From: a virus
DNA: 30,080 bases
Strand: one strand, 5' to 3'
IMG/VR virus record: IMGVR_UViG_3300017757_000078
Coordinates: 1-30,080 of that record
Shown: positions 5,863-23,900 of the stretch, in pieces
Layout: each line of letters begins with the position of its first letter
Position numbering within the stretch: the first letter of the stretch is position 1
Position numbers and translations under genes: made by a program
The notes under the pieces: generated by a model
Told to the model about the DNA's origin: nothing
Databases searched by the model: none
The model's input: only the letters and a program-made list of their open reading frames with translations

Positions 5863-6363
5863 ATGGGATTAAAACAAGACTTAATTGATGCTAAAGTTGA
5901 GGGGTTGAAACTTTCCGGAGCTAATGATGAGGCTATACAACAAGCTCAAGAAACATTGGAGACTCAAGTACAACTTGAAGTTGATGCTATTGTAAACTTT
6001 TTAACAAAGTGTCAGTTTAGAATTACTGGATTAGCTGCTAATGTTATATTGGAAGATTTCAAAATACCACCACAACAAGGTGATATTCAACCAACAGTGA
6101 CTAGTACTGATATTCCCTTTCCCGGTGGTATTAGTAGCCCACCAATACAAGTTCCACTTAATAATGGGACTAATGGAATCTTAACAAAAGATATAGATGT
6201 CGCTACAGATGGTGGAACTACAGGTATTTTACAATCAACTGGATATGCGTTTATTGGTGGAGATCCTGATTCCCAAGATGGGTTTGATGTATCAGATATA
6301 GATGGTGTTAGAAGCTTTACATCCGTTGAATTATTTAGAGAAGACATCGAGGACTTATTATAA
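5863..6363 (+). CDS. Hypothetical protein, probable minor tail/baseplate protein
   Basis: The 166-residue product has a helical N-terminal third (about 1-60, ending in AIVNFLTKCQFRITGLAANV) and a glycine/threonine/proline-rich remainder with short beta-prone stretches, acidic at the end. No known domain is recognised. It sits between the spike-associated gene and the gp25-like wedge gene, with a TAATG overlap into the latter, so a baseplate role is likely from context only. It is not obviously a PAAR tip protein, since there is no PAAR motif or metal-binding Cys/His set. Confidence 0.75.
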   Translation: MGLKQDLIDAKVEGLKLSGANDEAIQQAQETLETQVQLEVDAIVNFLTKCQFRITGLAANVILEDFKIPPQQGDIQPTVTSTDIPFPGGISSPPIQVPLNNGTNGILTKDIDVATDGGTTGILQSTGYAFIGGDPDSQDGFDVSDIDGVRSFTSVELFREDIEDLL

Positions 6364-6827
6364 TGGCTATAAAAGATACATCAAGAAAACCTTTTATTGA
6401 AGATAATGATACTAAAGTTAAAATTGGTATTGATTTACCAATTCGTAGAGATGATGGGTTAGATGGATTTTTTGCAACCACTTCAACAACCATTGAAGCT
6501 GTGAAAAACAACATAAGAAATTTATTACAAACCAATGAGGGTGAAAGATTTTTTCAACCAAACTTAGGTTTAGATTTAAGAAGGTTATTGTTTGAAAATA
6601 TTACAGAAGAAAATTTATTAAATATTCAAGATTCTATATTAGACAAATTTGAATTTTGGCTACCTTTTGTTGAGGTAAGAGATATACAAATTTTAAGTAG
6701 TAACGATACAACAGATATTGGAACTAATGAAATACGAGTTAAAATATTATTTAACATTAAACAAGATCCAAATACTTTGGGTTCGGTTATGGTAGATTTT
6801 TCAAGTGATATAAATGATGAAAATTAA
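6363..6827 (+). CDS. 25: Baseplate wedge protein, gp25-like
   Basis: The 154-residue product matches the T4 gp25 / P2 gpW-like family in length and motifs. The hallmark NEGERFFQPNLGLDLRRLLF is at residues 58-77, followed by the helical segment before PFVEVRDIQI (101-110) and paired C-terminal strands. In T4, gp25 sits in the inner baseplate and initiates sheath polymerisation. Its position just before the gp6-like gene is as in many contractile-tail gene clusters. The start overlaps the upstream stop (TAATG). Confidence 0.92.
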   Translation: MAIKDTSRKPFIEDNDTKVKIGIDLPIRRDDGLDGFFATTSTTIEAVKNNIRNLLQTNEGERFFQPNLGLDLRRLLFENITEENLLNIQDSILDKFEFWLPFVEVRDIQILSSNDTTDIGTNEIRVKILFNIKQDPNTLGSVMVDFSSDINDEN

Positions 6828-6841
6828 TACGGAGATGAAAT

Positions 6842-9160
6842 ATGCCAACATATGGTAATGAAAATTTTAAAGAATCAAATGTAAATTATTTAAATAAAGA
6901 TTTTGCATCATTAAAAGAATCTTTGATGAATTATGCAAAATCTTATTTTCCAGATACATATCGTGATTTTAATGAAACATCACCTGGTATGATGTTGTTG
7001 GAAATGAATGCTTATGTGGGTGATGTTTTATCATTTTATATAGACCAGCAATATAAAGAAATGATGTTCCCTTTAGCTGAAGAGAGAAGAAACATAATCA
7101 CTATGGCTAAGATGTTTGGATATAAAGTAAAACCTATTGTACCGGCTTATGTTGATTTAACATTCTCATCGGATGTTAATGCTTCAAGTGGTGATGTATC
7201 AAAAGTAGATTACTCACATGCTGGTGTTTTCAATTCTGGTATTGAAATAACTGCTGATTCTAATTCGGAAACTATTTTTACAACATTAGAACCAATTGAT
7301 TTTAGAATTACAGGTTCTAATGATACTGAAACAATTGCTGCAGTTGATGCTAATGGTTTAGCTACATCTTATACATTATCGAGGACTGTAAAGGCTGTAA
7401 GTGCGACTCAAAAAACACTTTCATTTCAAATTGGAGTTCCTGAGAAATTTAAAACCATTACTATACCTGATACAGATGTAATTGATATTATTTCTGTTAT
7501 TGATACGAATGGAAATAATTGGTATGAAGTTGATTTCTTAGCACAGGATAAAGTTCCAGTTGCAACTCATTATACCGATGATGTTAATAGAGATTCAGCA
7601 TATGCCGATGACACTGGCTTATCTGTTCCAGAGGCTGTTCCTTTTTCATTATCATATATCAAAACATCAAAAAGATTTACTCGTGAAACAAATCAAGATA
7701 ACAGCACATCATTACTTTTTGGTAATGGAGTTTTACAAGATGGAAATTTAATTGATGGGAGTTTCATTGATATGGAACAAGTTGGGATTATAGTACCTGG
7801 TCAAACAAATGATTTAAATGATTCAATCAATCCATTATTGGGTGATGAGTATTCAACATTAGGTGAAACACCAAACAACACAACTTTGACAGTAACATAT
7901 CGTGTAGGTGGTGGTATTAATTCAAATGTATCAAGTAATGATTTAACAAATGTACCAACTACATCACCTTCATTAGGAACAGCAACTTTAACAAAAGTTA
8001 CAAACAACAATCCAGCTCGTGGTGGTAAAGATGAAGAGGATACAATTGAAATAAAAGAAAAAGCCAAAGCATTTTTCTCAACACAAAACAGATGTGTAAC
8101 AAAAGAAGATTACGAAGCTAGAGTGTTAAACATACCAGCTAAGTTCGGAAATATAGCAAAAGCATATGTGACACGAGAAGCTCCTATTATTCCAGGTAGT
8201 ACTAATTTAACTGCATTCCAAAATTATTTGAATGCAGTTAGTCCTAATTATAGGAAGGCAATTCAGACACTTAGGGATTTAATGAATTATATTGGTGGTC
8301 TTAACTCCAATGATCAATTTTATCAAGATGTACGAGTAAATCCACCACATGATAGAATGTTGACAATTTTTGATTCAATAGCTAGTCTCGTTACGAGTAA
8401 TTGGTCTGGAACTCCCAATTTCAGTACTATGTTAGAAATTCTACCAGAAACACCAGATATATCTAATTTAACTAGAGAATTAGAATTGGGAACAATAAAC
8501 ATTTATGTATTAGGATATAATAATACAAAACAATTGGTTGGTAATCCAAATACAATAACAACTTTAACGAATGATAATTTACCATTGACTTTAATGTCAA
8601 ACATAAAAAAATATTTAGAAAACTTTAAATTAATGACGGATGTTGTTACATTGAATGATGGGTATATTGTAAACTTTGGTGTAATGTTTGATGTGATTGC
8701 TGAAAAATATGCAAACAAGCAAGAAGTAAAATTAAAATGTATTCAAAAAATAAAAGATTATTTTAATATAAATAAAATGCAATTTAATCAACCAATTTTT
8801 AAAAGTCAATTAGAATATGAATTAATGGGTGTTGAAGGTGTTCGTTCAATTGGTCATGTCACCATTACTCAAGATTATGATTATTTCTATCCACAAGATA
8901 GTGGTGATGGTGAATCATTAACTTCACCAACATATACTTATTCTTTTACACAAGATACTGGAATTGATACAGATGGAGATGATAATCCTAATTCTGGATA
9001 CATTGTTGCAAGTGGTGGAACTACAGGTTATGGTTATAAGTATGATTTTGCAACATCTGTTTCAGATGATAAGACAATCATATTACCACCACAATCATCG
9101 ACACCAACGGTTTTTGAATTAAAGAATCCAAATCAAAATATACAAGGGAGGGTTAGATAA
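6842..9160 (+). CDS. 6: Baseplate wedge protein, gp6/gpJ-like
   Basis: The 772-residue protein matches the T4 gp6 / P2 gpJ baseplate wedge family. SPGMMLLEMNAYVGDVLSFY (47-66) and EERRNIITMAKMFGYKV (80-96) form the conserved N-terminal region. A CVTKEDYEARVLNIP stretch (about 419-433) is typical of the central baseplate-J domain. FNQPIFKSQLEYELMGVEGV (about 650-670) lies in the C-terminal dimerisation-type domain. T4 gp6 is 660 residues; the excess is in a beta-rich insert (about 105-390) and a glycine/serine-rich C-terminal tail. In contractile tails this protein forms the ring that links wedges. CGGAGATG at 6831-6838 is the ribosome binding site. Confidence 0.92.
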   Translation: MPTYGNENFKESNVNYLNKDFASLKESLMNYAKSYFPDTYRDFNETSPGMMLLEMNAYVGDVLSFYIDQQYKEMMFPLAEERRNIITMAKMFGYKVKPIVPAYVDLTFSSDVNASSGDVSKVDYSHAGVFNSGIEITADSNSETIFTTLEPIDFRITGSNDTETIAAVDANGLATSYTLSRTVKAVSATQKTLSFQIGVPEKFKTITIPDTDVIDIISVIDTNGNNWYEVDFLAQDKVPVATHYTDDVNRDSAYADDTGLSVPEAVPFSLSYIKTSKRFTRETNQDNSTSLLFGNGVLQDGNLIDGSFIDMEQVGIIVPGQTNDLNDSINPLLGDEYSTLGETPNNTTLTVTYRVGGGINSNVSSNDLTNVPTTSPSLGTATLTKVTNNNPARGGKDEEDTIEIKEKAKAFFSTQNRCVTKEDYEARVLNIPAKFGNIAKAYVTREAPIIPGSTNLTAFQNYLNAVSPNYRKAIQTLRDLMNYIGGLNSNDQFYQDVRVNPPHDRMLTIFDSIASLVTSNWSGTPNFSTMLEILPETPDISNLTRELELGTINIYVLGYNNTKQLVGNPNTITTLTNDNLPLTLMSNIKKYLENFKLMTDVVTLNDGYIVNFGVMFDVIAEKYANKQEVKLKCIQKIKDYFNINKMQFNQPIFKSQLEYELMGVEGVRSIGHVTITQDYDYFYPQDSGDGESLTSPTYTYSFTQDTGIDTDGDDNPNSGYIVASGGTTGYGYKYDFATSVSDDKTIILPPQSSTPTVFELKNPNQNIQGRVR

Positions 9161-11922: not shown

Positions 11923-14900
11923 ATGCCTCATAACGATAATCATAATCCCTTTTCAATTGATAAATTAGACAAGATCGGTACAGATACAGGTCCGAATACA
12001 GTATATACAACAAATCTTACCTTGAGAGCAGAAGAAGCTGCAGGTAGTGAGGGTTTTTGGGCAACTGGTGATGGAGCTGACATACACACATTTTTAAGAT
12101 TAAAATTTGGATTTGCAAAATTTAATCTTTCACTTGAAAAATATTATGATTATATAGAGTTCGAATCTGATTTTGATGACTTAGAAATTAATGATAATAA
12201 TAAAATTACTTTTGGAGTTCAAGTTGGATCTAATGTTACTGACTTGGGGTATACTGAAGGATCTCATGCGACAAGACCTATCCAAATCCCAACTGTTACA
12301 GAGATAATGACATATTATAATCATGATGAATCAGAAACAGAGGGTTATTCGTTAGTGCAGTGTGAAATTCTTGATATTTATTGTCAGGGAAATTTTAATG
12401 AAGCTAGAGTAAAGTGGACATTTCCAAGCTCTCCAGGTAGCAGTTATCCTAGCTCAGGTGCAGTGGAAGGTTCATCGGGTGGTTACAAAGAACGATACCA
12501 TTGGATTAACTGGCCAAATGGGTATCGAAATCGTGAAAATTTACCAATTACTGCTGGCCAGCATATTTCTACAAATAGTGCTACCAATCAGAATTTCCTC
12601 CGTGAGTTTAATACATCAAACTTGTATGTAGAAGAAGTTGAACTTTTAGATGATGAAACATTAGAAGGTGAACTTCTCCACTCATCAACTTTGATACCAA
12701 GAATTGGTATGGGTGTAGGTGACTTATCCTCTTGGGGTTTAGGTTTAAATAACATAGATGATGATAATAAATTAATGGTACATGTAAATCAAGATAAAGA
12801 CTGGCCGATGTCTTGGTTAGGACAACAATGGTTAAATTCTGATTTCTTTGATAATCACCCGGATGTTGTATCAATAGTAGAATACCCATGGTATGTTTAT
12901 CCATTTAATAATTGGTATTTAAAATTATCTTCAGAACAAGTAGATGATGAGTGGGTAAAAATTAAGAGTGTAGAAACAAAAACTATTAATATGTTTGATC
13001 TTGCGGATAATCCAACTTATAGTGTTGGAGATTATTTTTATACAGAACTACATTTTGATAGAGCACAATTTGGAACGGATGTTGTTAATTGGGATGGTAT
13101 TGTTGTAGATGGGGGAACTGTTAATGTAGAAATTTGGGATTTACCTACTACTGATGCAGGTAATAATATACCTTTTAATACTACTGATGAAGGTATTTCA
13201 GTAGGTTTTGGTGTGCCAGGAGTTGCAGTTGAACAAACACTTAGAAATGCAATTGATGGGTATAGTGGTATTTATATGGAAAATGGAATGACTTTCATTA
13301 ATAATAAAGAGTTGTATTTAAATAACAATAATCAAGATAAAAGAGTTCCACTTGGAATGTTTTTCTTCAATGAAGATAATACAAATACTTTAAATTTGCC
13401 AATTAAATTTTCGGAAGAAAAATTTAATCAAATAAGTAATATTAATTTAATTCAAAATGGAGATGCTAAAAGAATTGACAAAAAATATACTAGTAATGGT
13501 GGTGAAAATACAATTGCTTTTAAGCCTGATGGTGGATGGCACTTTCTACCTTTACAGGGTGTAGCTTTTGAAATTCGTGATTGGGGTGATGACGGTAATC
13601 AAAATTATATTTGGAAAATTAATTCGGATGATACTCTCTATACAGAGAGGGAGGAACTTAGTCAATATTTTGAACAATCTGGAAATTTTATTGGTATGAA
13701 TGCGCAGAAACAATATGGTTATGGTGGATATTATCCATATGCTCGTTTATATACAAATATGGCCGTAAAGTATTTTAATAAACTTTCAAATTCATCTGAT
13801 CTCAGGGATGTATTTTTTGACGCTTATAAATTCACTTCTGGAATGGCAACAAGTGGTGGTTCAAATCAGAGCGCTCCTGAGATTGCAACTTGGGTAGATT
13901 TTTCTACAGCTGACGAAGATTTAGCTTATTCAAATAAAAAGTGTTTAGTTTTAAGTGGGTTAAGCGAATATTCATCTCAAAGTACTTTGGCTAAATACTG
14001 GAATCTTTTTAAATCTTTAGATCCAAACTCTGATGATGCTCTTTTACCATGGATACTTCCAGACGGAAACCCTGATAATGATCCACTTTTTATTGAAGAA
14101 AATAAATACAGAGTATTGAATCAAACTCAAAAAATTTATGATGCAACTGATGGGACACTTCATCCTTATAGTGCATTAAAAGTAAAATTTAAAATGAAAA
14201 CTACAAGAAAGAATGATGATGATAATAGTTATCCACCTGTTGAAGTAGGTATACTTAGCTGTGATATATGGGATTCGGGTAGCCCTATGGCCACACCGGT
14301 AAGAGACAAGTATGCAGAATCTAGGGGTAGTTTTAATTCATACACATATCCAAATACAAGTTATGTTAATCAAAAAAATTATGATTTTGGAGGAATGAAT
14401 AGAGTTGAAAATACTGAAATGGGTGTATGGCAAGATTTTGAATTTGATTTTACATTAACTGATAGGCATATAACTATGGGACAAGTTAAGACTCTTAATT
14501 TCTTTGTACAATCAAGTGGACCTATTTTCACAGGACAAGTTATGTTAGATGATTTTGAAGTATATGAATCATATGATTTTTATCCAGATTGTGATGTTAG
14601 AATGAAAAAAGGAGCTAATGAATATGGGGTAGGGGATTTAACAAAATACTATGATCCAACAATACCTAATCAACTTGAAGCTTACAATGATACAGTTGCT
14701 CCAATGGAAACTCAGTTTTATTTTTATCCAAGATATCCATCAAATCAAATATTGGGTGTTGATAGAACTATTCAATACGAAGCATTTAAAAGGGGTTTGT
14801 TTTACATTTATGATATAGATTGGGGAGATGGTTCTTCAAAAGAATTTACAACTGAACCTGAAAAAATTGATGAGGAAAAAGCTCTTTACCATACATATAA

Positions 14901-16893
14901 AGAAAGTGGTGTTTATGAAATAACAGGATATATGTTAAGATTGAAAGAAGATAAAGATGGAAATCAGATTGGATTAATTAACAATAAAAAATTTAAATTA
15001 AGAATAAATATTAATGAAGGTTTGGATGAAGATTTTACCTTCCTATCTTCGGATGGGTTTTCATTCATCCCCTACAAAAATACTTTACCAATAGTTGGGG
15101 GACACTCTAAGCAAAGTAGTTATTATAAAACCATAAAAAGAATGTTAGGTTTTTTAGAAGATAACACTCGTACAAATATTAAATATAAAAATATTAGCAC
15201 TAAACTAAAATTAGAAAGAGCTTTGTTAAAAATGGATGAAAGTTATAAACCACTTTTAGATTCAAATTCTATGGGGGGAATTTTACCATATTTTAATAGT
15301 TACAATAATGTTTTATTAACTGAGGGAGACTTATCTGCGATTGTGGACAAAGAAAATTATTATATAAATAGTTTAGGTTTAGTATCAGGAATATTGGATA
15401 TTCGAAATGATACAGTTCAATTTTCATATTACACTGGTGAAGAGCAGGGTGAATGGTGGAAGTTTGAACTAACACAGCAATCAGCTCAAGCTTTTGAATA
15501 TTTAACTGGTACTGATGGTGAAGATCAGAGGCAGGGGTGGTTATCAGAGTTAAATTCAAATTTTACAGATGAGTATAAGGCAGTACATATAATTGATGCA
15601 GGAAGTACTAATGTAGATACGGGTTGGTCATCTGGATATTTCGGTGGTGTTTACCAAACAGAACGAAGTAACAATACCTATACTAAAGGCCTTTACAAAC
15701 AATTTGATGGAACATCATATACTTTATATGTTGCTCCAGCAGGTTTCCAATCATCTCAAAATTTTCCAGATGTTACAGTTGAAGTTGATAATTCAGCTGA
15801 ACCAAAACTCTACTTTACTCCATACTTTGAATCTGAAGAACTTTCTGAAGATAACAACGAGGAGCCGCCTGATTTCGTTAATCATGATGTTTTTAATGAT
15901 GATTCAAACATTCACGGTATGTCACTTGCAAGTTTTAATGTATTATCTGATGATGCCCAAGCGGAATATATGGACAAGTTAGGAACACTACCATTTCCAA
16001 GATATTTTCAAGAATTTGATTTTTTTGGAAATAGTGGAATCACTCAAGATGGCTCATCATATGCATGGGACGATTTGTTTGCAAACATACCAAGATGGGA
16101 AGAATTGGGTAGATTTGATATATCTTTTTATTTAACAATTATGGAATCATTTCAATCTATGGTAGATGATATTACAAATGAACAATTAATTGACTTGGTT
16201 TATGAGTGGGCTAATAGTGAATATAATAATTTACCGCAGAACTGGTTATACAATGCATTAAATAATGAATTTCCACCTAATAATTTATTTACTTCTTCAG
16301 AAGTTCCTGTAAATAATGGTTTGAATCCTTTACTTGGTGAATTAGGAAATTCTTTAAATACTGTAGATTTAACAAGTGTAAAGTATTACAATAAGCCTAA
16401 GTCTATTTTTGAATTAATTGGATTTCAATCTTATGATTTTAACCAAGTTGGAAATCCTAATAATGAAAGATATTGGAAAAATATTATACCAGAGGATTAT
16501 GATATATTAGATAGGGAAGGTCTTCCCTTGCAAGAAGGTGAGGGAAGTATAGATACTTATTCACAACAAGATTGGATGGGTGGTTACTATTATCCTGTAT
16601 TACCAAGATATGGGAGTGATGGTAAATTTATTGAAGGGGATTTCCCGAATAATAAAATACCATTTCCAGTGCAAGGTAATATAACTAATGAACAGGAAAC
16701 TAAAGATAATTTACTAATAAATATAACAAGTGAAGTTGTTGAAAATAATGTGTTTAATGATTTAAGTGGCAATGGAAATTTAGGATTTTCAATATCAGAT
16801 TATAAACCATCTTTTGATAATAAAACTTTAAAGCCAACAAAAAGAAAAACATTTCAAAGAACTAAAAAATCAAAATCGAATGGGGCATTCTAA
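11923..16893 (+). CDS. Giant virion protein with PKD-like and jelly-roll-like domains
   Basis: The 1656-residue protein is modular. Residues 745-885 look like a carbohydrate-binding jelly roll ending GQVMLDDFEVYES. Residues 945-1032 form a PKD-like Ig fold with DIDWGDGSSKEF (W967) and HTYKESGVYEITG (from H990). Residues 1054-1075 (LPIVGGHSKQSSYYKTIKRM) begin a block also present in the next protein. Residues 1345-1413 hold a LPFPRYFQEFD ... GRFDI module shared with two copies in the next protein. The C-terminus ends SNGAF. It is most likely a baseplate-peripheral or fibre-like protein. Its start is preceded by AAGGTG at 11909-11914. The gene is intact; no frameshift is seen. Confidence 0.65.
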   Translation: MPHNDNHNPFSIDKLDKIGTDTGPNTVYTTNLTLRAEEAAGSEGFWATGDGADIHTFLRLKFGFAKFNLSLEKYYDYIEFESDFDDLEINDNNKITFGVQVGSNVTDLGYTEGSHATRPIQIPTVTEIMTYYNHDESETEGYSLVQCEILDIYCQGNFNEARVKWTFPSSPGSSYPSSGAVEGSSGGYKERYHWINWPNGYRNRENLPITAGQHISTNSATNQNFLREFNTSNLYVEEVELLDDETLEGELLHSSTLIPRIGMGVGDLSSWGLGLNNIDDDNKLMVHVNQDKDWPMSWLGQQWLNSDFFDNHPDVVSIVEYPWYVYPFNNWYLKLSSEQVDDEWVKIKSVETKTINMFDLADNPTYSVGDYFYTELHFDRAQFGTDVVNWDGIVVDGGTVNVEIWDLPTTDAGNNIPFNTTDEGISVGFGVPGVAVEQTLRNAIDGYSGIYMENGMTFINNKELYLNNNNQDKRVPLGMFFFNEDNTNTLNLPIKFSEEKFNQISNINLIQNGDAKRIDKKYTSNGGENTIAFKPDGGWHFLPLQGVAFEIRDWGDDGNQNYIWKINSDDTLYTEREELSQYFEQSGNFIGMNAQKQYGYGGYYPYARLYTNMAVKYFNKLSNSSDLRDVFFDAYKFTSGMATSGGSNQSAPEIATWVDFSTADEDLAYSNKKCLVLSGLSEYSSQSTLAKYWNLFKSLDPNSDDALLPWILPDGNPDNDPLFIEENKYRVLNQTQKIYDATDGTLHPYSALKVKFKMKTTRKNDDDNSYPPVEVGILSCDIWDSGSPMATPVRDKYAESRGSFNSYTYPNTSYVNQKNYDFGGMNRVENTEMGVWQDFEFDFTLTDRHITMGQVKTLNFFVQSSGPIFTGQVMLDDFEVYESYDFYPDCDVRMKKGANEYGVGDLTKYYDPTIPNQLEAYNDTVAPMETQFYFYPRYPSNQILGVDRTIQYEAFKRGLFYIYDIDWGDGSSKEFTTEPEKIDEEKALYHTYKESGVYEITGYMLRLKEDKDGNQIGLINNKKFKLRININEGLDEDFTFLSSDGFSFIPYKNTLPIVGGHSKQSSYYKTIKRMLGFLEDNTRTNIKYKNISTKLKLERALLKMDESYKPLLDSNSMGGILPYFNSYNNVLLTEGDLSAIVDKENYYINSLGLVSGILDIRNDTVQFSYYTGEEQGEWWKFELTQQSAQAFEYLTGTDGEDQRQGWLSELNSNFTDEYKAVHIIDAGSTNVDTGWSSGYFGGVYQTERSNNTYTKGLYKQFDGTSYTLYVAPAGFQSSQNFPDVTVEVDNSAEPKLYFTPYFESEELSEDNNEEPPDFVNHDVFNDDSNIHGMSLASFNVLSDDAQAEYMDKLGTLPFPRYFQEFDFFGNSGITQDGSSYAWDDLFANIPRWEELGRFDISFYLTIMESFQSMVDDITNEQLIDLVYEWANSEYNNLPQNWLYNALNNEFPPNNLFTSSEVPVNNGLNPLLGELGNSLNTVDLTSVKYYNKPKSIFELIGFQSYDFNQVGNPNNERYWKNIIPEDYDILDREGLPLQEGEGSIDTYSQQDWMGGYYYPVLPRYGSDGKFIEGDFPNNKIPFPVQGNITNEQETKDNLLINITSEVVENNVFNDLSGNGNLGFSISDYKPSFDNKTLKPTKRKTFQRTKKSKSNGAF
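15955..16160 (+). repeat. GRxDI module, copy 1 (diverged protein-level repeat)
   Basis: Encodes LPFPRYFQEFDFFGNSGITQ, then a serine/tryptophan spacer and ELGRFDISFYL. Compared with the two copies in the following gene it keeps the (F/Y)P(R/K)Y..E(F/L) opening and the GR.DI closing, with a longer middle. The likeness is at protein level only. Confidence 0.6.
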
Positions 16894-16895
16894 TG
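16879..16895 (+). promoter_or_regulatory. Stop/start junction doubling as translation start region, copy 1
   Basis: AATGGGGCATTCTAATG encodes the end of the SNGAF C-terminus and contains the G-rich stretch that can serve as ribosome binding site, with the next ATG overlapping the stop (TAATG). It matches the junction at 20913-20929 in 15 of 17 bases. Confidence 0.6.
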
Positions 16896-19800
16896 GCTAA
16901 TTTATTAGGAACAACAACTACCAATGAAAATATGCAGACCCAAGAAATCAATAACCATTGGAGGTTTGATGATGCTGAAACTGAACAATTTATGTATCAT
17001 AAGACTATTCCAAACAGTTCTCTTAATATATTTACTGATTATTCGTCACTAAACCCAACTACTACTACAGCTACAGGATATTATATGATAATTGATAGTG
17101 AGGTAATTGAGATAACAAATGTTGCACCACATCCGAACGCACCAGATTTATATCAGATTTTTACTACAAATAGAGGAGTATTGGGTTCAACATCTGTTGG
17201 TCATGGGGTGGATGAACAAGTACAAATTTGGGATGGTGTACCTGATGGGTATAGTTCATATGAAGAACCTTCAGAGACTGAATCTCAGGAGAGTCCTCAG
17301 GAAGGTACTACGATTAAAGCTTTAATATTAGATCAACCTAAACTTGGTGATGTGAGTCATTATAATTTTAAAGAAAGTGAAACAGATTTTAGTTATGTAA
17401 ATTCTATTGGTTTACCAGAAAATATTGATAAGTTTGATAATAAAGATTTACATACAACATCAATGGGTTCGGAAATAAATGAAGTTATACTTCAATCTAA
17501 TATGAAATTTTCAGGTTCTTCTTATATTAGAATTGATAATATAAGAATTGATAATGCTGGTGTAAATTACAAAACAAAAAACATTCGTATTAAAGCTTTT
17601 ATATTTTCAGAACAAGCCTTTCTTAATGATGCTAATAATAATGGCTATACTCTACCATTAGATTCTGATTTTTATAAACTTCATAATGTGTTAAATGGCA
17701 GTGGTGATAAGTTTTGTTTTTACAATAAAGCTTTTAGTAGAAAGAGTGATAAACAGGGATTAGGAAATATAAGTGATATGGAAGGTGTAAACATTGTCTC
17801 CAATCTAGCAGCTGATGCTAGTAGTGATATTGAAGTGGGGGATTTTCCTGGTAATGATAGTTTTAATACTGGGACAGGAGATACCGACACATTTGCTGTA
17901 ACTGATAATTCGCAGGAGATTGTAGAAATTATTGATAATTTACAAGAAAATCCATTGTATGTAGCAGTATGGATGCGTGGTAATGCAAGAAGGTGGTGGG
18001 GAACGGATAAAAGAAAAAAAAGATTCCAAGTTTATAAAATTAACAATTTAGATTTGTTTCTGGATGGAACAGCTGGAAAAGTAACTACATTAAATTGGGA
18101 CGGAGGTGCAGCTGACAATACTAAAACTGGAGCAGGAGGTGGTGCAGGAGTTGAAGCAGCCGCTTTTAAAATAACACAATTTAAAATGACTATCAATACA
18201 TTGTCAGGGGAATCTAATGATAATCTTAGTCAGGCACTGGTAGATGAATGGGTTGGCGATGTTTTACCACCTTTAGATTTTTATCCAACTGATATTAATA
18301 AGAATTTATTTTTACAAATTTCACCATTTCAACAATTAAATAATTCTGACGATGATGGATATGATTATTCTCAATTTGTATTTCCAGAATATTTTCCATT
18401 TACAACTTTTGGTATTATAGGATCTGATGGTGGGATGGATTCAGAATATTCTGATTTACAAAGTTATTATCCATTCCAATCACGACAATCTTTTAGGGCA
18501 TCAGCTCCAGCAACAATTACATTTAATATAGAATATAGAGATCCAGAAAATATTGAAGATTTATATAGTCAAGATGATTTTATTCATTTTGTTATTGATT
18601 GGGACGATAAAGATGATGAAATAAAAACAATAGATGATTTTTTAAATGAACGGCCTGAGAATATGCTAGATTTACAGGAATTACAAAGTCAAGGTTTATA
18701 TACTACAGATGTTTCTAAAATGAGACATACTTATTTAAAACCTGGTATTAAAACAATAAAATTAATTACAATTAGTTATGATGATTCTAAAAATGCATTA
18801 GGAAGATGGAAACTTGTTACTTCAAGATTTTTTTTAGATATACCCATTTCTGAATATCCTGATTTTGGTGAAGTTGGTGGTGATGATTATAAAACAATAC
18901 CATGGCCATTTACAACAGTAATTATTGGTGGTATTGATGAAAATTCAAAATATAAAACAAGTATTAGGAATACACTAGCTAGTGGTAAAATTGGTTCTAC
19001 GGATATTATTGATGAGAAGTTCTTAACTTATGCTGATGAAAACGATGAATTAGGAAAATCAATTGAAAATTTAGATTTAGAACAGTTAAGATATTTTAAT
19101 CAAAGTTATAATATGAATAACTTGTTAAAAATAGAACCTATGATTGTTGGGGAGCAGCAATATGAAGATGATTATATTTCAAATGTAAATCTGTTTCACA
19201 ATCCTATGGCTGATGATTCTGATTTTTCAGACTTTTATGGTGAAGATTATGCTACATCACAAGAGTGGTTATCATCATTACAATTTCCTAAATATAGAGA
19301 AGAACTCGACCAATCCGATGGTGGAGAGGGTGATGGTGGTTTTAGTATTGAAGATGTAATTTATTGGAGTGGTAAAAACAGACCTGATATATCTTTATTA
19401 ATAAATCACATTTTAAATCCTTCACCTACAACTGAAGCTGCAATTAGTGAATACATATATCCTGATTATGTTAATTCTTGGATTACTACAGATGATATAC
19501 CAAGTGCTATTATTCCAATGGGTATAAACTATTTTAGACCATATAATTATACGATAGATTCTCCAAATGATATTGAAGATCCATCATTTTTTAATATTAA
19601 TCATAATAACTATAATATTTCAGAAGTGTGGTATGGTCAAAAAGCAGGTGCGGTTGGTGGTGATGTAGATAGAATAGGAACAGATTTATATGAACAAAAA
19701 AAATATGATGATGATTCGCAGGGTATTCGTATACGACACACTGCTACTAATGTTGTTGAAGATGAGTGGACATTCTTTAAATATCAGAGAAAAGATTTAA

Positions 19801-20927
19801 ATGTAAATTTAAAACCAAAAAGTCAAGGTGGTACTCATTATATATTTAAGTGTGAAATAAAATTCAATGAATATTCAGTAAATGCTCCAAGATTCTACAC
19901 ATTTAGACCAGCTAATCGAGATAATGATTACGGAACACCATTTTACAATAATGGTGAATATGATAATGATTATATCAGATTTTATCGTGGAGATGATGGT
20001 GTTTATTCAAATTCGAGTTTAACTAATAAAATTGCTGATTATGGTCAATGGATATATATTCAAAAAGAGCGTAGATTAATTTCAGACTATTCTTCTTATA
20101 GAAGTGGTGGTGAATTAGAATCTGTTGATGGTTTTCCAAATATGGAATTTTTAACAGATAATTGGTTTGATGCATTTGATACATTTATCCAAGATGCAAA
20201 TACAGATCCTGAATTTTTAAGTACTTTACCATATCCAAGATATTGGGAGGAGTTTAATATTAGTGGTGGTGGTTTTACACAAACAGATTTAGAACAATGG
20301 ATTGGTGTTGGTAGACCAGATATTGCTGTACTTATTTATTATTTAGCTAGTAATTCAACAGAAGCTGAAGGTTTAGATTATTATGAATACATGTATCCAG
20401 AATATATACAAAACTTTATAGCTAACGCGGTGGAACATGGTTTTGGATATGAATTTCTATCTGACGATAGTTTAATTATTCCACTTGCAGAAGATTTTAA
20501 TGATACACCACAATCATCTTTACACTTTCATAATATTTCAGGTTATCCAGAAGCTGTAGTGGATTTGGAAATTCGTAATCCAATTATGATGGAAAGTAGT
20601 ATTTTTAATCAAATAACTGATACATCTATATTAAATGAAGATAAATTTTATTGGAATGGAGAAACAAATAAATTTCCAGAGGAAACTTCTGTCGGACAGA
20701 TATTTATAAATGACAACATAGATTTAGATTTAAAACAAAGTTGTAAATTAGAAATAAACACGGGTGAGTTAACTGATAAACAAATTTATGATTCAAGTGG
20801 TAATTCAAACTCAGGATTGTTAATTGGTGATTATAAAGTTAAAAAGAATAGAAAAGGTCAACCTATGAGAAGAGATTCATATATTAAAGTTCCTAAAAAA
20901 ACAAATAATAGTAATGGAGCATTGTAA
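16893..20927 (+). CDS. Giant virion protein, paralogue of the preceding one
   Basis: The 1344-residue protein carries near the start a IIDSEVIEITNV ... NRGVLGSTSVGHGVDEQV module (about 69-112), a pattern seen in phage tail-associated proteins. Residues 540-633 are a PKD-like fold, with DWDDKDDE (W570) in place of the usual WGDG and RHTYLKPGIKTIKL near 611-624. VIIGGIDENSKYKTSIRNTL (about 677-696) matches the GG..S.YKTI block of the preceding protein. Two GRPDI modules follow (about 789-865 and 1106-1177). The C-terminus, DSSGNSNSGLLIGDYK to SNGAL, aligns with that of the preceding protein. Its function is probably a baseplate-peripheral or adhesin role. The start overlaps the upstream stop (TAATG). 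Confidence 0.65.
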   Translation: MANLLGTTTTNENMQTQEINNHWRFDDAETEQFMYHKTIPNSSLNIFTDYSSLNPTTTTATGYYMIIDSEVIEITNVAPHPNAPDLYQIFTTNRGVLGSTSVGHGVDEQVQIWDGVPDGYSSYEEPSETESQESPQEGTTIKALILDQPKLGDVSHYNFKESETDFSYVNSIGLPENIDKFDNKDLHTTSMGSEINEVILQSNMKFSGSSYIRIDNIRIDNAGVNYKTKNIRIKAFIFSEQAFLNDANNNGYTLPLDSDFYKLHNVLNGSGDKFCFYNKAFSRKSDKQGLGNISDMEGVNIVSNLAADASSDIEVGDFPGNDSFNTGTGDTDTFAVTDNSQEIVEIIDNLQENPLYVAVWMRGNARRWWGTDKRKKRFQVYKINNLDLFLDGTAGKVTTLNWDGGAADNTKTGAGGGAGVEAAAFKITQFKMTINTLSGESNDNLSQALVDEWVGDVLPPLDFYPTDINKNLFLQISPFQQLNNSDDDGYDYSQFVFPEYFPFTTFGIIGSDGGMDSEYSDLQSYYPFQSRQSFRASAPATITFNIEYRDPENIEDLYSQDDFIHFVIDWDDKDDEIKTIDDFLNERPENMLDLQELQSQGLYTTDVSKMRHTYLKPGIKTIKLITISYDDSKNALGRWKLVTSRFFLDIPISEYPDFGEVGGDDYKTIPWPFTTVIIGGIDENSKYKTSIRNTLASGKIGSTDIIDEKFLTYADENDELGKSIENLDLEQLRYFNQSYNMNNLLKIEPMIVGEQQYEDDYISNVNLFHNPMADDSDFSDFYGEDYATSQEWLSSLQFPKYREELDQSDGGEGDGGFSIEDVIYWSGKNRPDISLLINHILNPSPTTEAAISEYIYPDYVNSWITTDDIPSAIIPMGINYFRPYNYTIDSPNDIEDPSFFNINHNNYNISEVWYGQKAGAVGGDVDRIGTDLYEQKKYDDDSQGIRIRHTATNVVEDEWTFFKYQRKDLNVNLKPKSQGGTHYIFKCEIKFNEYSVNAPRFYTFRPANRDNDYGTPFYNNGEYDNDYIRFYRGDDGVYSNSSLTNKIADYGQWIYIQKERRLISDYSSYRSGGELESVDGFPNMEFLTDNWFDAFDTFIQDANTDPEFLSTLPYPRYWEEFNISGGGFTQTDLEQWIGVGRPDIAVLIYYLASNSTEAEGLDYYEYMYPEYIQNFIANAVEHGFGYEFLSDDSLIIPLAEDFNDTPQSSLHFHNISGYPEAVVDLEIRNPIMMESSIFNQITDTSILNEDKFYWNGETNKFPEETSVGQIFINDNIDLDLKQSCKLEINTGELTDKQIYDSSGNSNSGLLIGDYKVKKNRKGQPMRRDSYIKVPKKTNNSNGAL
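19258..19490 (+). repeat. GRxDI module, copy 2
   Basis: Encodes WLSSLQFPKYREELDQSDGG, then GGFSIEDVIYWSGKNRPDIS and, after a spacer, EYIYPDYVNSWI. The order of an acidic/glycine loop, a short helix with tryptophan, then RPDI resembles a dockerin or EF-hand-like segment. It pairs with the copy at 20209-20424 in the same gene. Confidence 0.7.
20209..20424 (+). repeat. GRxDI module, copy 3
   Basis: Encodes FLSTLPYPRYWEEFNISGGG, then FTQTDLEQWIGVGRPDIAVL and EYMYPEYIQNFI. It keeps every landmark of the copy at 19258-19490: L..LP(F/Y)P.Y..E, the glycine loop, the helix with W, RPDI, and EY.YP(D/E)Y. Confidence 0.7.
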
Positions 20928-20929
20928 TG
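20913..20929 (+). promoter_or_regulatory. Stop/start junction doubling as translation start region, copy 2
   Basis: AATGGAGCATTGTAATG encodes the end of SNGAL plus stop, offers GGAG as ribosome binding site, and overlaps the next ATG. It is the near twin of the junction at 16879-16895. Confidence 0.6.
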
Positions 20930-23900
20930 CCAGATTTTGAATTTGAATTTAATCAACAAGATAGAGATATAATTTTAAGTCAAGATGTTGGAACATTTGG
21001 TAATTCTGGTGATTACATTCGTTTAACCATTTATCCAACTGAAGCGATTAGTAATGTTGTTGATTTACCTGATGATACAAAGGGTATTGATGGTAAAGCT
21101 GTATTCTTTTCTACTCTCAACGAATCACTTAAAATTAATGTATCACCATTTACTGATGATGAGCGATATTTTGAATATTTTATCGGTGGTGCAGATAATA
21201 ATTTTAAAATATATCAAAATGGTGATGATGTATATATTAAACCAAATGAAATATTTAATGATTTTGAATTACCTCAAGGTAATTATAGAATACAAATTGA
21301 TTTTTTAAATCAACTTAATCCTCCAATTGCAGGTTCAACGGGTGATGATGACAATCAAGTAGAAGATGATGCTGAAGTAGCTCAGAAACCATATCAATTT
21401 ATTTTAAGGCAGATATCAACTTCAAGGAAAGAGGTTCGTCTTAAATTATTAGATAAAAATATTGAAAACAATTCATTAGAAATTTTTGATATAACAAATG
21501 AATTTAATAATTTTGAATCTGAATTTATAGATGATGGTGATGGTAATCAAATACCAAATCCAAATTATAAATATCAATTCAAACATGTATTAAATATTGG
21601 AACTGGTGACCACATTCCAATTATGAATTATCAATTTGATAAAATTACAGGTGGAAGTGATAATCAATCTATAATCTTAAAACTATATCAATCATTACCA
21701 ACTAATATTGCAAATCTATCAATGGTTACAATTGAGAAAGAAGTTTTAACAACACAAATTCAATCAACATTTTATTTTTCTGATGTACCTGCTGTATTTT
21801 TTGGTGATGGTTTACAAACTGATTATAGTTATAATTTATTAAATCCCAACGATGATGACTTTGGATATCAGAGTATAGATGAATTGGCTTATTCAGCTTC
21901 TATTGGTGAAGTTGAAACCGATACTATAATATCATCAAGTCAATATGGTTATCCAAATTTAAATACAGACTTTAATGAATTTGAAAATCATACATTCTTT
22001 GGTTCTGCTAAAAAGAAATTAGAAAATTTTAAAACAAAAGTTACAACTATACAAGGATATTATTCTGAAATCTCAGGTACATTGAATGTTTCAAGTTCAA
22101 TTGGGGGTGATTCAACTTTTATTATACAAAAAAGAAAAGATTTATTTAATAAAATAAACGAGGAATTTAAAAACTTTACACCATATGAGAGATTTTTATA
22201 TTATGATGGTCAAAGTGAATCAACATCATCATCACCAAGTTTAGTAAATTATGCAGAGCCAACACCTGTACAATTAGGTGGTAATTCGGTTGAGGGTATT
22301 GAGTTAAATCAACACAATGGATTTAATGTTGTATATAAACATACATCAGAAAAAGTATCTGGTACTCACAATAAATATATAGATTTATTTACAGATAAAT
22401 ATTCTGTAGAGAATAAACCATTTTTTAATTACAGTAGTTCAATTTATTTATCATTTTTAATGCAAGGTGATAGTGGTAGTTCATTGACTTGGCAAGATTT
22501 TAATGTACAAAACAATCCTCCACTACCTAGTGATACTTTATACCAAAACAATGTTTTAAATCCTGATATGACAGGAAGTGCATATCAAAGATATATATTT
22601 CAGGCCTCTATGTCTTACTTTGTACCAAACACAACAAACAATGATTTAGCTGATTTAAGTGTTGCTGCTGGTGATTTTAATGCTGGTTCTTCAAAAATTA
22701 CAATTTTAAGTGGTAGTATTAAAACAGGTTCAAGTCGAATAAAAGATTCAACTAATTTATATCCAATGAATGTTGTAACTCAAAGTGGTGTTCCATTCAA
22801 GGGTTCGGTACTGCCGAGTGGTGAATTATTTAGGATTTATAATCAAAACACTTTATCATCAAGTTTAAGTGGTAGTTGGAATGTAGATTCCCAAACCTCA
22901 GGTGCTTCTGTTACAAACGCGATGTTAACTGACTTTAGTGGTAGAGGAAATACTGGTTCAATTGATGAAGGAACACCAAAAATATCAGATGGTGTTACTG
23001 TACATGGTAGACAATATGGAAAATCAATGTTGTTTTTAAGTGAGTCAAATGATTCCATAAGATATTTTTCCGATGATGATTTTAACTTTAATAGAGATGA
23101 TAATTTTTCATTATCCATATGGGTAAAAAGATTTCATCCAAATACAGGTTCAGCTGACCCAACAAAACCTTCAAGTGCAAATACACAGGCTATTTTTACA
23201 AGGGGGCAGACGGGTAACTCTTATGGTATTGATTATGACTTTACTAATAACTTAGTTAGGGGTGGTGTAAGGGGTACAGGTGCACAAGAACAGATTACAA
23301 CTACTGCGACAGATGATTTATTAAATTGGAATCATATTGCTTTTACATTTGAAAGTGGTTCAGCTACTGGTATGAAACTTTATCTTAATGGTAAACTAAA
23401 AGGTACTCATACAACAACTGGAGCTGGTTATTCGATAACTGGTTCAAGTCATTTTTCGGCATCGGTTCATAATATATCTGGTTCAGGTGATGCGTTAAGT
23501 ATAGCTGGTAATGACATAATAGGTGGTACAAATGGTCACTTTAATGGATTTTTACAATACCCAAGAGTTTATGGTAGAACTATAACACCATCTGAAGTTA
23601 ATCAATTATATTTAAAACCAGATGGTAATACTGAAACAAAAATTACAGATGTAAAAGTAACATTAAAAGACCCAACTAAAGCTTATCCATTTGATAATAT
23701 GTTTAAAACAACTTCAACTGAATGGACTGATTGGTACAATGGAATGATTACTTCAGCTTCAGCTTTTGATACTGATAACATACATTCATTTGAAAACAAT
23801 TTACCTCTTTATATTCAAGATAGTTCTGATTATGGTGAAATGAAAGATTTTTTAAATTTACAAGGTGAACAATATGATTTAATTAGAAACCATATTGATT

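Follow-up and report, generated by a model that had tools for sequence, protein, structure and literature searches.

A candidate mobile EF-hand-like module in adjacent tail proteins of an uncultivated phage lineage

What kind of element recurs three times in two long proteins encoded side by side in a viral genome fragment, and what might it do there? The question is raised by a 30-kb IMG/VR virus fragment (the window, i.e., the whole stretch of DNA analysed), which carries a T4-type baseplate block consisting of gp25 and gp6 followed by genes A-B-C-D-E (Table 1). The original prediction described three similar protein segments, one in protein C and two in protein D, and considered them a possible calcium-loop or dockerin half acting as a docking module in virion proteins.

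Three module copies downstream of gp25 and gp6

Proteins C, D and E are assigned as putative tail proteins by synteny, given their position downstream of gp25 and gp6. Over 162 columns, hhalign identifies C and D as paralogs (probability 97.6%, E = 3.5e-12), whereas no homology between E and either C or D was detectable by profile comparison of the hhalign type. Protein C contains a PKD-like segment (DWGDGS; weak Pfam PKD match, E = 0.14, and NCBIfam PamR segment, E = 0.001). The CBM96-like segment of protein A scored above the Pfam cut-off (E = 2e-7), which suggests that the baseplate role of A involves carbohydrate binding or is related to the fold. No Rfam match was found over positions 15000-21000 of the window.

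Table 1. Genes, module copies and insert regions of the window
Feature	Position	Strand	Remarks
gp25-like baseplate wedge protein	6363..6827	+	Pfam GPW_gp25, E 1.9e-11; context
gp6-like baseplate wedge protein	6842..9160	+	PHROG 219, E 1.2e-22; context, bait for relatives
Protein A, 369 aa	9160-10269		Directly 3' of gp6; CBM96-like segment
Protein B, 548 aa			Between A and C
Protein C, 1656 aa, tail protein (by synteny)	11923..16893	+	ORF; carries module copy 1
Protein D, 1344 aa, paralog of C	16893..20927	+	ORF; carries module copies 2 and 3
Protein E, 1902 aa	20927..26635	+	Pfam Laminin_G_3, E 1.6e-12
Module copy 1	15961..16188	+	C residues 1347-1422; LPFPRYFQEFD, expanded loop, PRW, GRFDI
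Module copy 2	19251..19466	+	In D; LQFPKYREELD, loop DQSDGGEGDGGFSIED, YW, NRPDI, then EYIYPDYVNSWITTDDIPSA
Module copy 3	20199..20402	+	In D; LPYPRYWEEF, 11-residue loop NISGGGFTQTD, W, GRPDI helix, EYMYPEY
Variable insert region of C	15295..16308	+	338 aa vs 103 aa in module-less homolog L205 (HSP boundaries)
Insert in D, main insertion site, ~470 aa	19224..20642	+	Short loop in module-less homologs (reference residues 643-673)
Cargo of D insert, lying between copies 2 and 3	19530..20190	+	Without Pfam match

The three related segments proved real and lie in long open frames, in the proposed distribution between the two proteins. Their common order of motifs also held overall, but copy 2 reads LQFPKY and NRPDI instead of LPFP and GRPDI, and copy 1 has GRFDI together with a long loop insertion; the EY.YP(D/E)Y signature was confined to copies 2 and 3, as described originally. 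A hidden Markov model constructed from 65 copies, all from other contigs, recovered copy 1 (E = 3.2e-10), copy 2 (E = 7.1e-13) and copy 3 (E = 2.8e-19), the best E-value among 600 shuffles of the window C, D and E proteins being 0.15, and a search of the window with copy 3 alone returned exactly these three places. The profile proposed earlier as a check thus retrieves the window copies from independent sequences, and the same approach finds copies in related phages. The motif is short, the proteins are acidic and the genome is AT-rich, all of which might favor a chance or compositional resemblance, but the E-values of the window-free model and the shuffled controls oppose such an explanation, which we regard as refuted, with a negligible residual probability. 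Membership of copies 1 and 2 rests on the profile, and that of copy 3 on the profile and an AlphaFold2 model (see below).

A module family in the tail genes of related phages

Relatives were collected by a search with gp6, which yielded 80 related loci, followed by iterated profiles, DNA patterns and whole-contig searches. In the related IMG/VR contigs, which are fragments, we identified 74 module copies, distributed over 40 of 44 contigs, or 68 copies once near-identical ones were removed; the claim of a module recurring in tail proteins was thereby borne out, with the tail assignment based on synteny. The module is ~65 residues long, with the consensus [ND]TsxEYLxTLPFPxYFEEFDIxgDGxLxxxDxxxWxxxGRPDIAxxI, and reaches up to ~95 residues with a YPDY...W...DIPS tail; this longer subset, in which the sequence continues as YxYPDYVxxWxxxxDIPSA, includes window copies 2 and 3. 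Across 53 copies, the near-invariant residues are P, L, the D at the end of the loop, W, R, D and I.

All but three copies reside in homologs of C, D or E, the adjacent tail genes downstream of gp25/gp6. The exceptions are a copy in contig L169, in a short ORF that immediately precedes C, and the copies in two other ORFs of contig L198. One L198 protein (ORF at 14246), with a module at residues 435-495, displays a second dockerin-like loop, DVNNDGSITLSD, at residue ~1208, outside the detected modules. Three C proteins (L172, residues 1464-1531; L186, 1443-1516; L174, 1463-1506) also contain, ahead of the main copy, a diverged and weaker module relative (TYVESFDLKHDGTIDSLDITFW). Homology to gp6 or E alone retrieved 22 complete C-D-E sets, of which 20 contain at least one module, with one to three in each. 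The two complete sets devoid of modules are those of L176 and L205, and thus a module is not indispensable in the C, D and E genes.

An IMG/VR scan for D...W...GRPDI returned strong profile matches exclusively from within the C-D-E gene cluster; the remaining matches look like chance. When C, D and the module were compared by tblastn with 50,697 phage records, nothing was found other than a weak EF-hand-like match of the module to Aeromonas phage RIIA. This similarity to the module consensus is seen in the RIIA genes (e.g., JN377905.1, 18204-18287); the match is weak and carries no evidence of homology, so that we read it as convergence and did not include it in the family. The plasmids searched contained no member, with a single weak and unrelated match. 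The pattern D...W...GRPDIA matched GTDB genomes 8 times, never with a strong profile score, and the six matches read in context look like chance; a scan for DxDxDG...W without GRPDI detected no family member. Thus, within the collections searched (IMG/VR, named phages, plasmids and GTDB), the module is apparently confined to the tail genes of one phage lineage, a little-known, uncultivated group of contractile-tailed phages. We found no description of it in the open-licence papers searched, and it apparently represents an undescribed, compact EF-hand-like domain family.

Calcium loop and predicted structure

In 37 of the 68 non-redundant copies, EEF and xxxW are separated by exactly 12 residues. 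These 37 loops have D/N at position 1 in every case, D or N at position 5 in 32, G at position 6 in 29, I/L/V at position 8 in 36 and D at position 12 in 34. The strict EF-hand loop (DxNxDGxxxxxD) is present in 27 of the 68 copies (~40%), including L164:7526-7840 (in D) and L199:8817-9119 (in E), and its density, 27 in 5,310 aa of module versus 1 in the other 91,350 aa of these proteins, is 460-fold higher inside the module. A profile-to-PDB search gave Calcium-binding protein 1 as the top match (E = 2.5e-4), with its EF-hand loop aligned. The Pfam models EF-hand_1 and EF-hand_6 matched single copies with E-values of 0.0005 and 0.0003 at best, below the gathering scores wherever those were shown.

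The calcium-loop idea therefore fares well for the family, with its strict loops and EF-hand-like models, but less well for the window itself, where all three loops are degenerate. Copy 1 has a large insert, copy 2 a longer Gly/Asp loop and copy 3 a loop of 11 residues, and the full ligand set is lost from each. Judging by sequence, then, the family possesses the EF-hand loop (ligands at positions 1, 3, 5 and 12, and Gly at 6), whereas the three window copies do not. Given that all three are non-canonical, Ca2+ is not essential to every copy.

The structure of copy 3 was predicted with AlphaFold2 from an alignment of 53 copies, all AlphaFold runs having used small custom alignments. The model has a mean pLDDT of 76.9, with ten-residue blocks at 89-94 from residue 11 to residue 50, and contains helices at 22-25, 34-42 and 46-56. 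For the canonical L199 copy, modelled in its E context, most of the module has block values of 84-91, and the module is flanked by beta strands, one before and one after. Here, a one-turn helix (168-171) leads into the predicted loop (residues 172-183), and the exit helix begins at residue 181, loop position 10. The predicted order is one-turn helix, loop, exit helix and W...GRPDI helix, with an equivalent arrangement in copy 3. Structure prediction, put forward with the original idea as a search for a metal-binding loop, thus yielded EF-hand-like geometry in both models. Foldseek searches against PDB and BFVD (viral) returned no significant match, a single EF-hand being short for such a test.

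The geometry of the modelled L199 E copy and of window copy 3 is predicted to be EF-hand-like, a term we prefer to EF-hand because the entering helix comprises only one turn. The module shares with the EF-hand superfamily (PF00036, PF13405) the 12-residue loop with D1, N/D3, D/N5, G6, a hydrophobic residue at 8 and D12, and, in the models, an exit helix that begins at loop position 10. It differs from the superfamily in its one-turn entering helix, in having a single loop per module and weak curated matches, in the additional LPFP cap and W...GRPDI helix, and in the erosion of the loop in more than half of the copies. An EF-hand-like Ca2+ site has been described in a phage lysin, in the CHAP domain of LysGH15 (PMC4022735); both are EF-hand-like Ca2+ loops in phage proteins, but the LysGH15 site lies inside a catalytic domain, whereas the module is a separate, apparently mobile unit in tail structural proteins.

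Insertion sites, movement and possible roles

Insertion sites were mapped using the module-less set L205 as reference. In C, they fall at the N-terminus and at residues 853-958, 994-999 and 1024-1032; in D, at the N-terminus, at 476-495 (a loop of the PKD-like region) and at 643-660; and in E, at 152-177, an N-terminal beta-strand loop that is occupied in relatives and empty in the window E. In empty E orthologs, this loop has between a few and ~30 residues, between QIDFLNQ and FIIKQISTSRKE. The module is absent from many orthologs of each single gene, and module-less D homologs are 733-763 aa long. At the main D site, inserts range from ~71 aa (the module alone, in L178) to more than 700 aa. 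The module of most long inserts starts no more than ~10 residues from the conserved scaffold boundary, ahead of the variable part; in L168, exceptionally, it lies near the far end of a long D insert.

As E has no detectable homology to C or D, paralogy alone cannot explain the E copies. At the DNA level, cross-protein similarity is confined to the module (72% over 243 bp between L164 D and L170 C). The highest cross-protein identity, 83% over 197 bp, connects L196:9310-9594 (C) with L198:15530-15826, which lies in another protein, on a more divergent contig, and is consistent with recent module transfer. A tree of 66 copies (66 columns) contains clusters of copies from the same site along with supported cross-protein pairs, most forks being unresolved, and implies 24 site changes versus 34 after shuffling; this clustering by site shows that some vertical descent took place besides movement. 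The 5' LPFP part has a mild synonymous-codon excess (Leu TTA in 55 of 60), too mild for us to retain a DNA-level constraint on this segment. In Flavobacterium phage immuto and Microcystis phage Mel-JY01, homologs of gp6, A, E, F and G occur in order, with an H homolog in immuto; C, D and the module were not found in the 42 kb examined. C and D lie between B and E, and these two phages have the flanking gene order without C and D.

These computations establish the homology of the copies, their discrete loop sites, their presence or absence and their shuffling among unrelated proteins. Residing in non-homologous hosts (C/D versus E) that have module-less orthologs, the module can, from such comparisons, be classed as a mobile domain. 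Domain shuffling is documented in phage receptor-binding and baseplate proteins (PMC10684548). Shuffled domains, such as the Ig-like ones (PMC10684548), likewise occur in non-homologous structural proteins with variable presence, but those are beta-sandwiches, whereas the module is predicted to be all-helical and EF-hand-like, and it is apparently restricted to one phage lineage.

The proposed kinship with a dockerin half did not survive. A genuine dockerin, with its cohesin partner either on the host or in the virion, is suggested by the loop sequence DxNGDGxxxxxD, by the appearance of the dockerin-bearing Cellulosomal scaffolding protein A in the PDB profile search (E = 0.14), by partial-profile Dockerin_1 matches in 14 of 36 records and by tandem copies in L178 and L186. 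However, the partial matches cover about half of the profile or less, and Dockerin_1 (PF00404) never rose above the cut-off (0 of 36 records). Each module has one loop, and two ~22-residue loop-helix repeats in one domain were not encountered; tandems of whole modules occur only in L178 and L186, and when these are aligned with single copies, the latter fall on one half. There was no fold match, and the cohesin-like partner envisaged originally did not appear: Cohesin (PF00963) is absent from the 36 records, which are fragments, so that absence from the genomes is not implied; no alternative candidate partner came up either. Because the tandem loops, an above-cut-off Dockerin_1 match and a cohesin partner are all lacking, we conclude that the module is not a dockerin, and a genuine dockerin is very improbable. 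As far as the account of the type I dockerin in PMC4022735 goes (PF00404; Lytle et al. 2001, 1DAQ), the common features are the loop sequence, a near-absent entering helix (loop-F pattern) and the extracellular-type modular insert, and the differences are the module's lack of a tandem loop pair, its partial, below-cut-off profile match and the absence of a detected cohesin. Even module numbers per genome were considered as a sign of pairing, an idea that was dropped because many complete sets have 1 or 3. Separately, the long D inserts of L191 (9702-11132), L199 (9821-11911) and L200 (8263-10407), contigs that each carry modules in C, D and E, share a beta-rich-looking domain (VLYN...GFQF...CGTL). 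We take this domain to resemble cohesin-like marine domains, but did not use it as a partner, since it has no Pfam or PDB support and occurs in only three genomes.

Two further explanations concern what the module does, if anything. It might be a Ca2+-stabilised decoration touching a cell-surface protein or glycan, with its scatter over loops reflecting selection on adsorption, similar to the Ig-like or carbohydrate-binding inserts of phage virions. The loops belong to distal tail proteins, neighboring domains are of the Laminin_G_3 and CBM96-like types, presence/absence variation is strong and shuffling is on record for receptor-binding and baseplate proteins (PMC10684548). However, the P/W/RxDI core is more constant than expected for a receptor surface in an arms race with the host, and the position of the module close to the scaffold boundary in most long D inserts suggests an anchor rather than a tip; direct host contact is possible, if doubtful. 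Alternatively, a neutral or selfish in-frame insert, prone to recombination and without function in the particle, would account for the many loop sites, the restriction of cross-protein DNA homology to the module, the mild codon excess and the frequency of module-less orthologs of each single gene. Against this stand the maintenance of Ca2+-loop and core residues in far-diverged copies, the retention of at least one copy somewhere in nearly all complete sets, and the fact that no mobility gene or repeat was noticed at the sites. Near-universal presence combined with free choice of site speaks for a function independent of exact position, and such a function fits attachment or host contact better than neutral insertion, which we consider distinctly unlikely.

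We tentatively favor, at somewhat less than even confidence, a mini-domain that is mobile and EF-hand-like and serves as an attachment knob stabilised by calcium, i.e., a docking or attachment module that is not a dockerin. The mini-domain occupies surface loops of C, of the paralogous D and of the unrelated E, which are neighboring, baseplate-distal tail proteins. In canonical copies, the loop would bind Ca2+ and thereby lock the short helix-loop-helix onto the W/GRPDI helices, creating a rigid knob. This knob would hold other tail or adhesin subunits, or neighboring inserted domains, in place, with the attachment point at the root of the insert or between subunits. In degenerate copies, including the three in the window, the conserved P/W/RxDI core may keep the fold without a full Ca2+ site. 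A more far-reaching version, which we consider speculative and rather unlikely, is a phage-encoded, calcium-dependent docking system in which the single-loop module, placed at several loops of the three tail proteins, recruits adhesin or fibre subunits that are interchangeable, as a convergent counterpart of the dockerin-cohesin plug-and-socket.

For the baseplate-to-fibre zone of uncultivated phages, the module is a tangible example of domain mobility, with fixed loop sites in unrelated tail proteins. If it docks partners, it would be a small, swappable attachment unit and would allow a direct test of adhesin exchange among such phages; if it binds Ca2+, it would help to explain the calcium dependence of adsorption.
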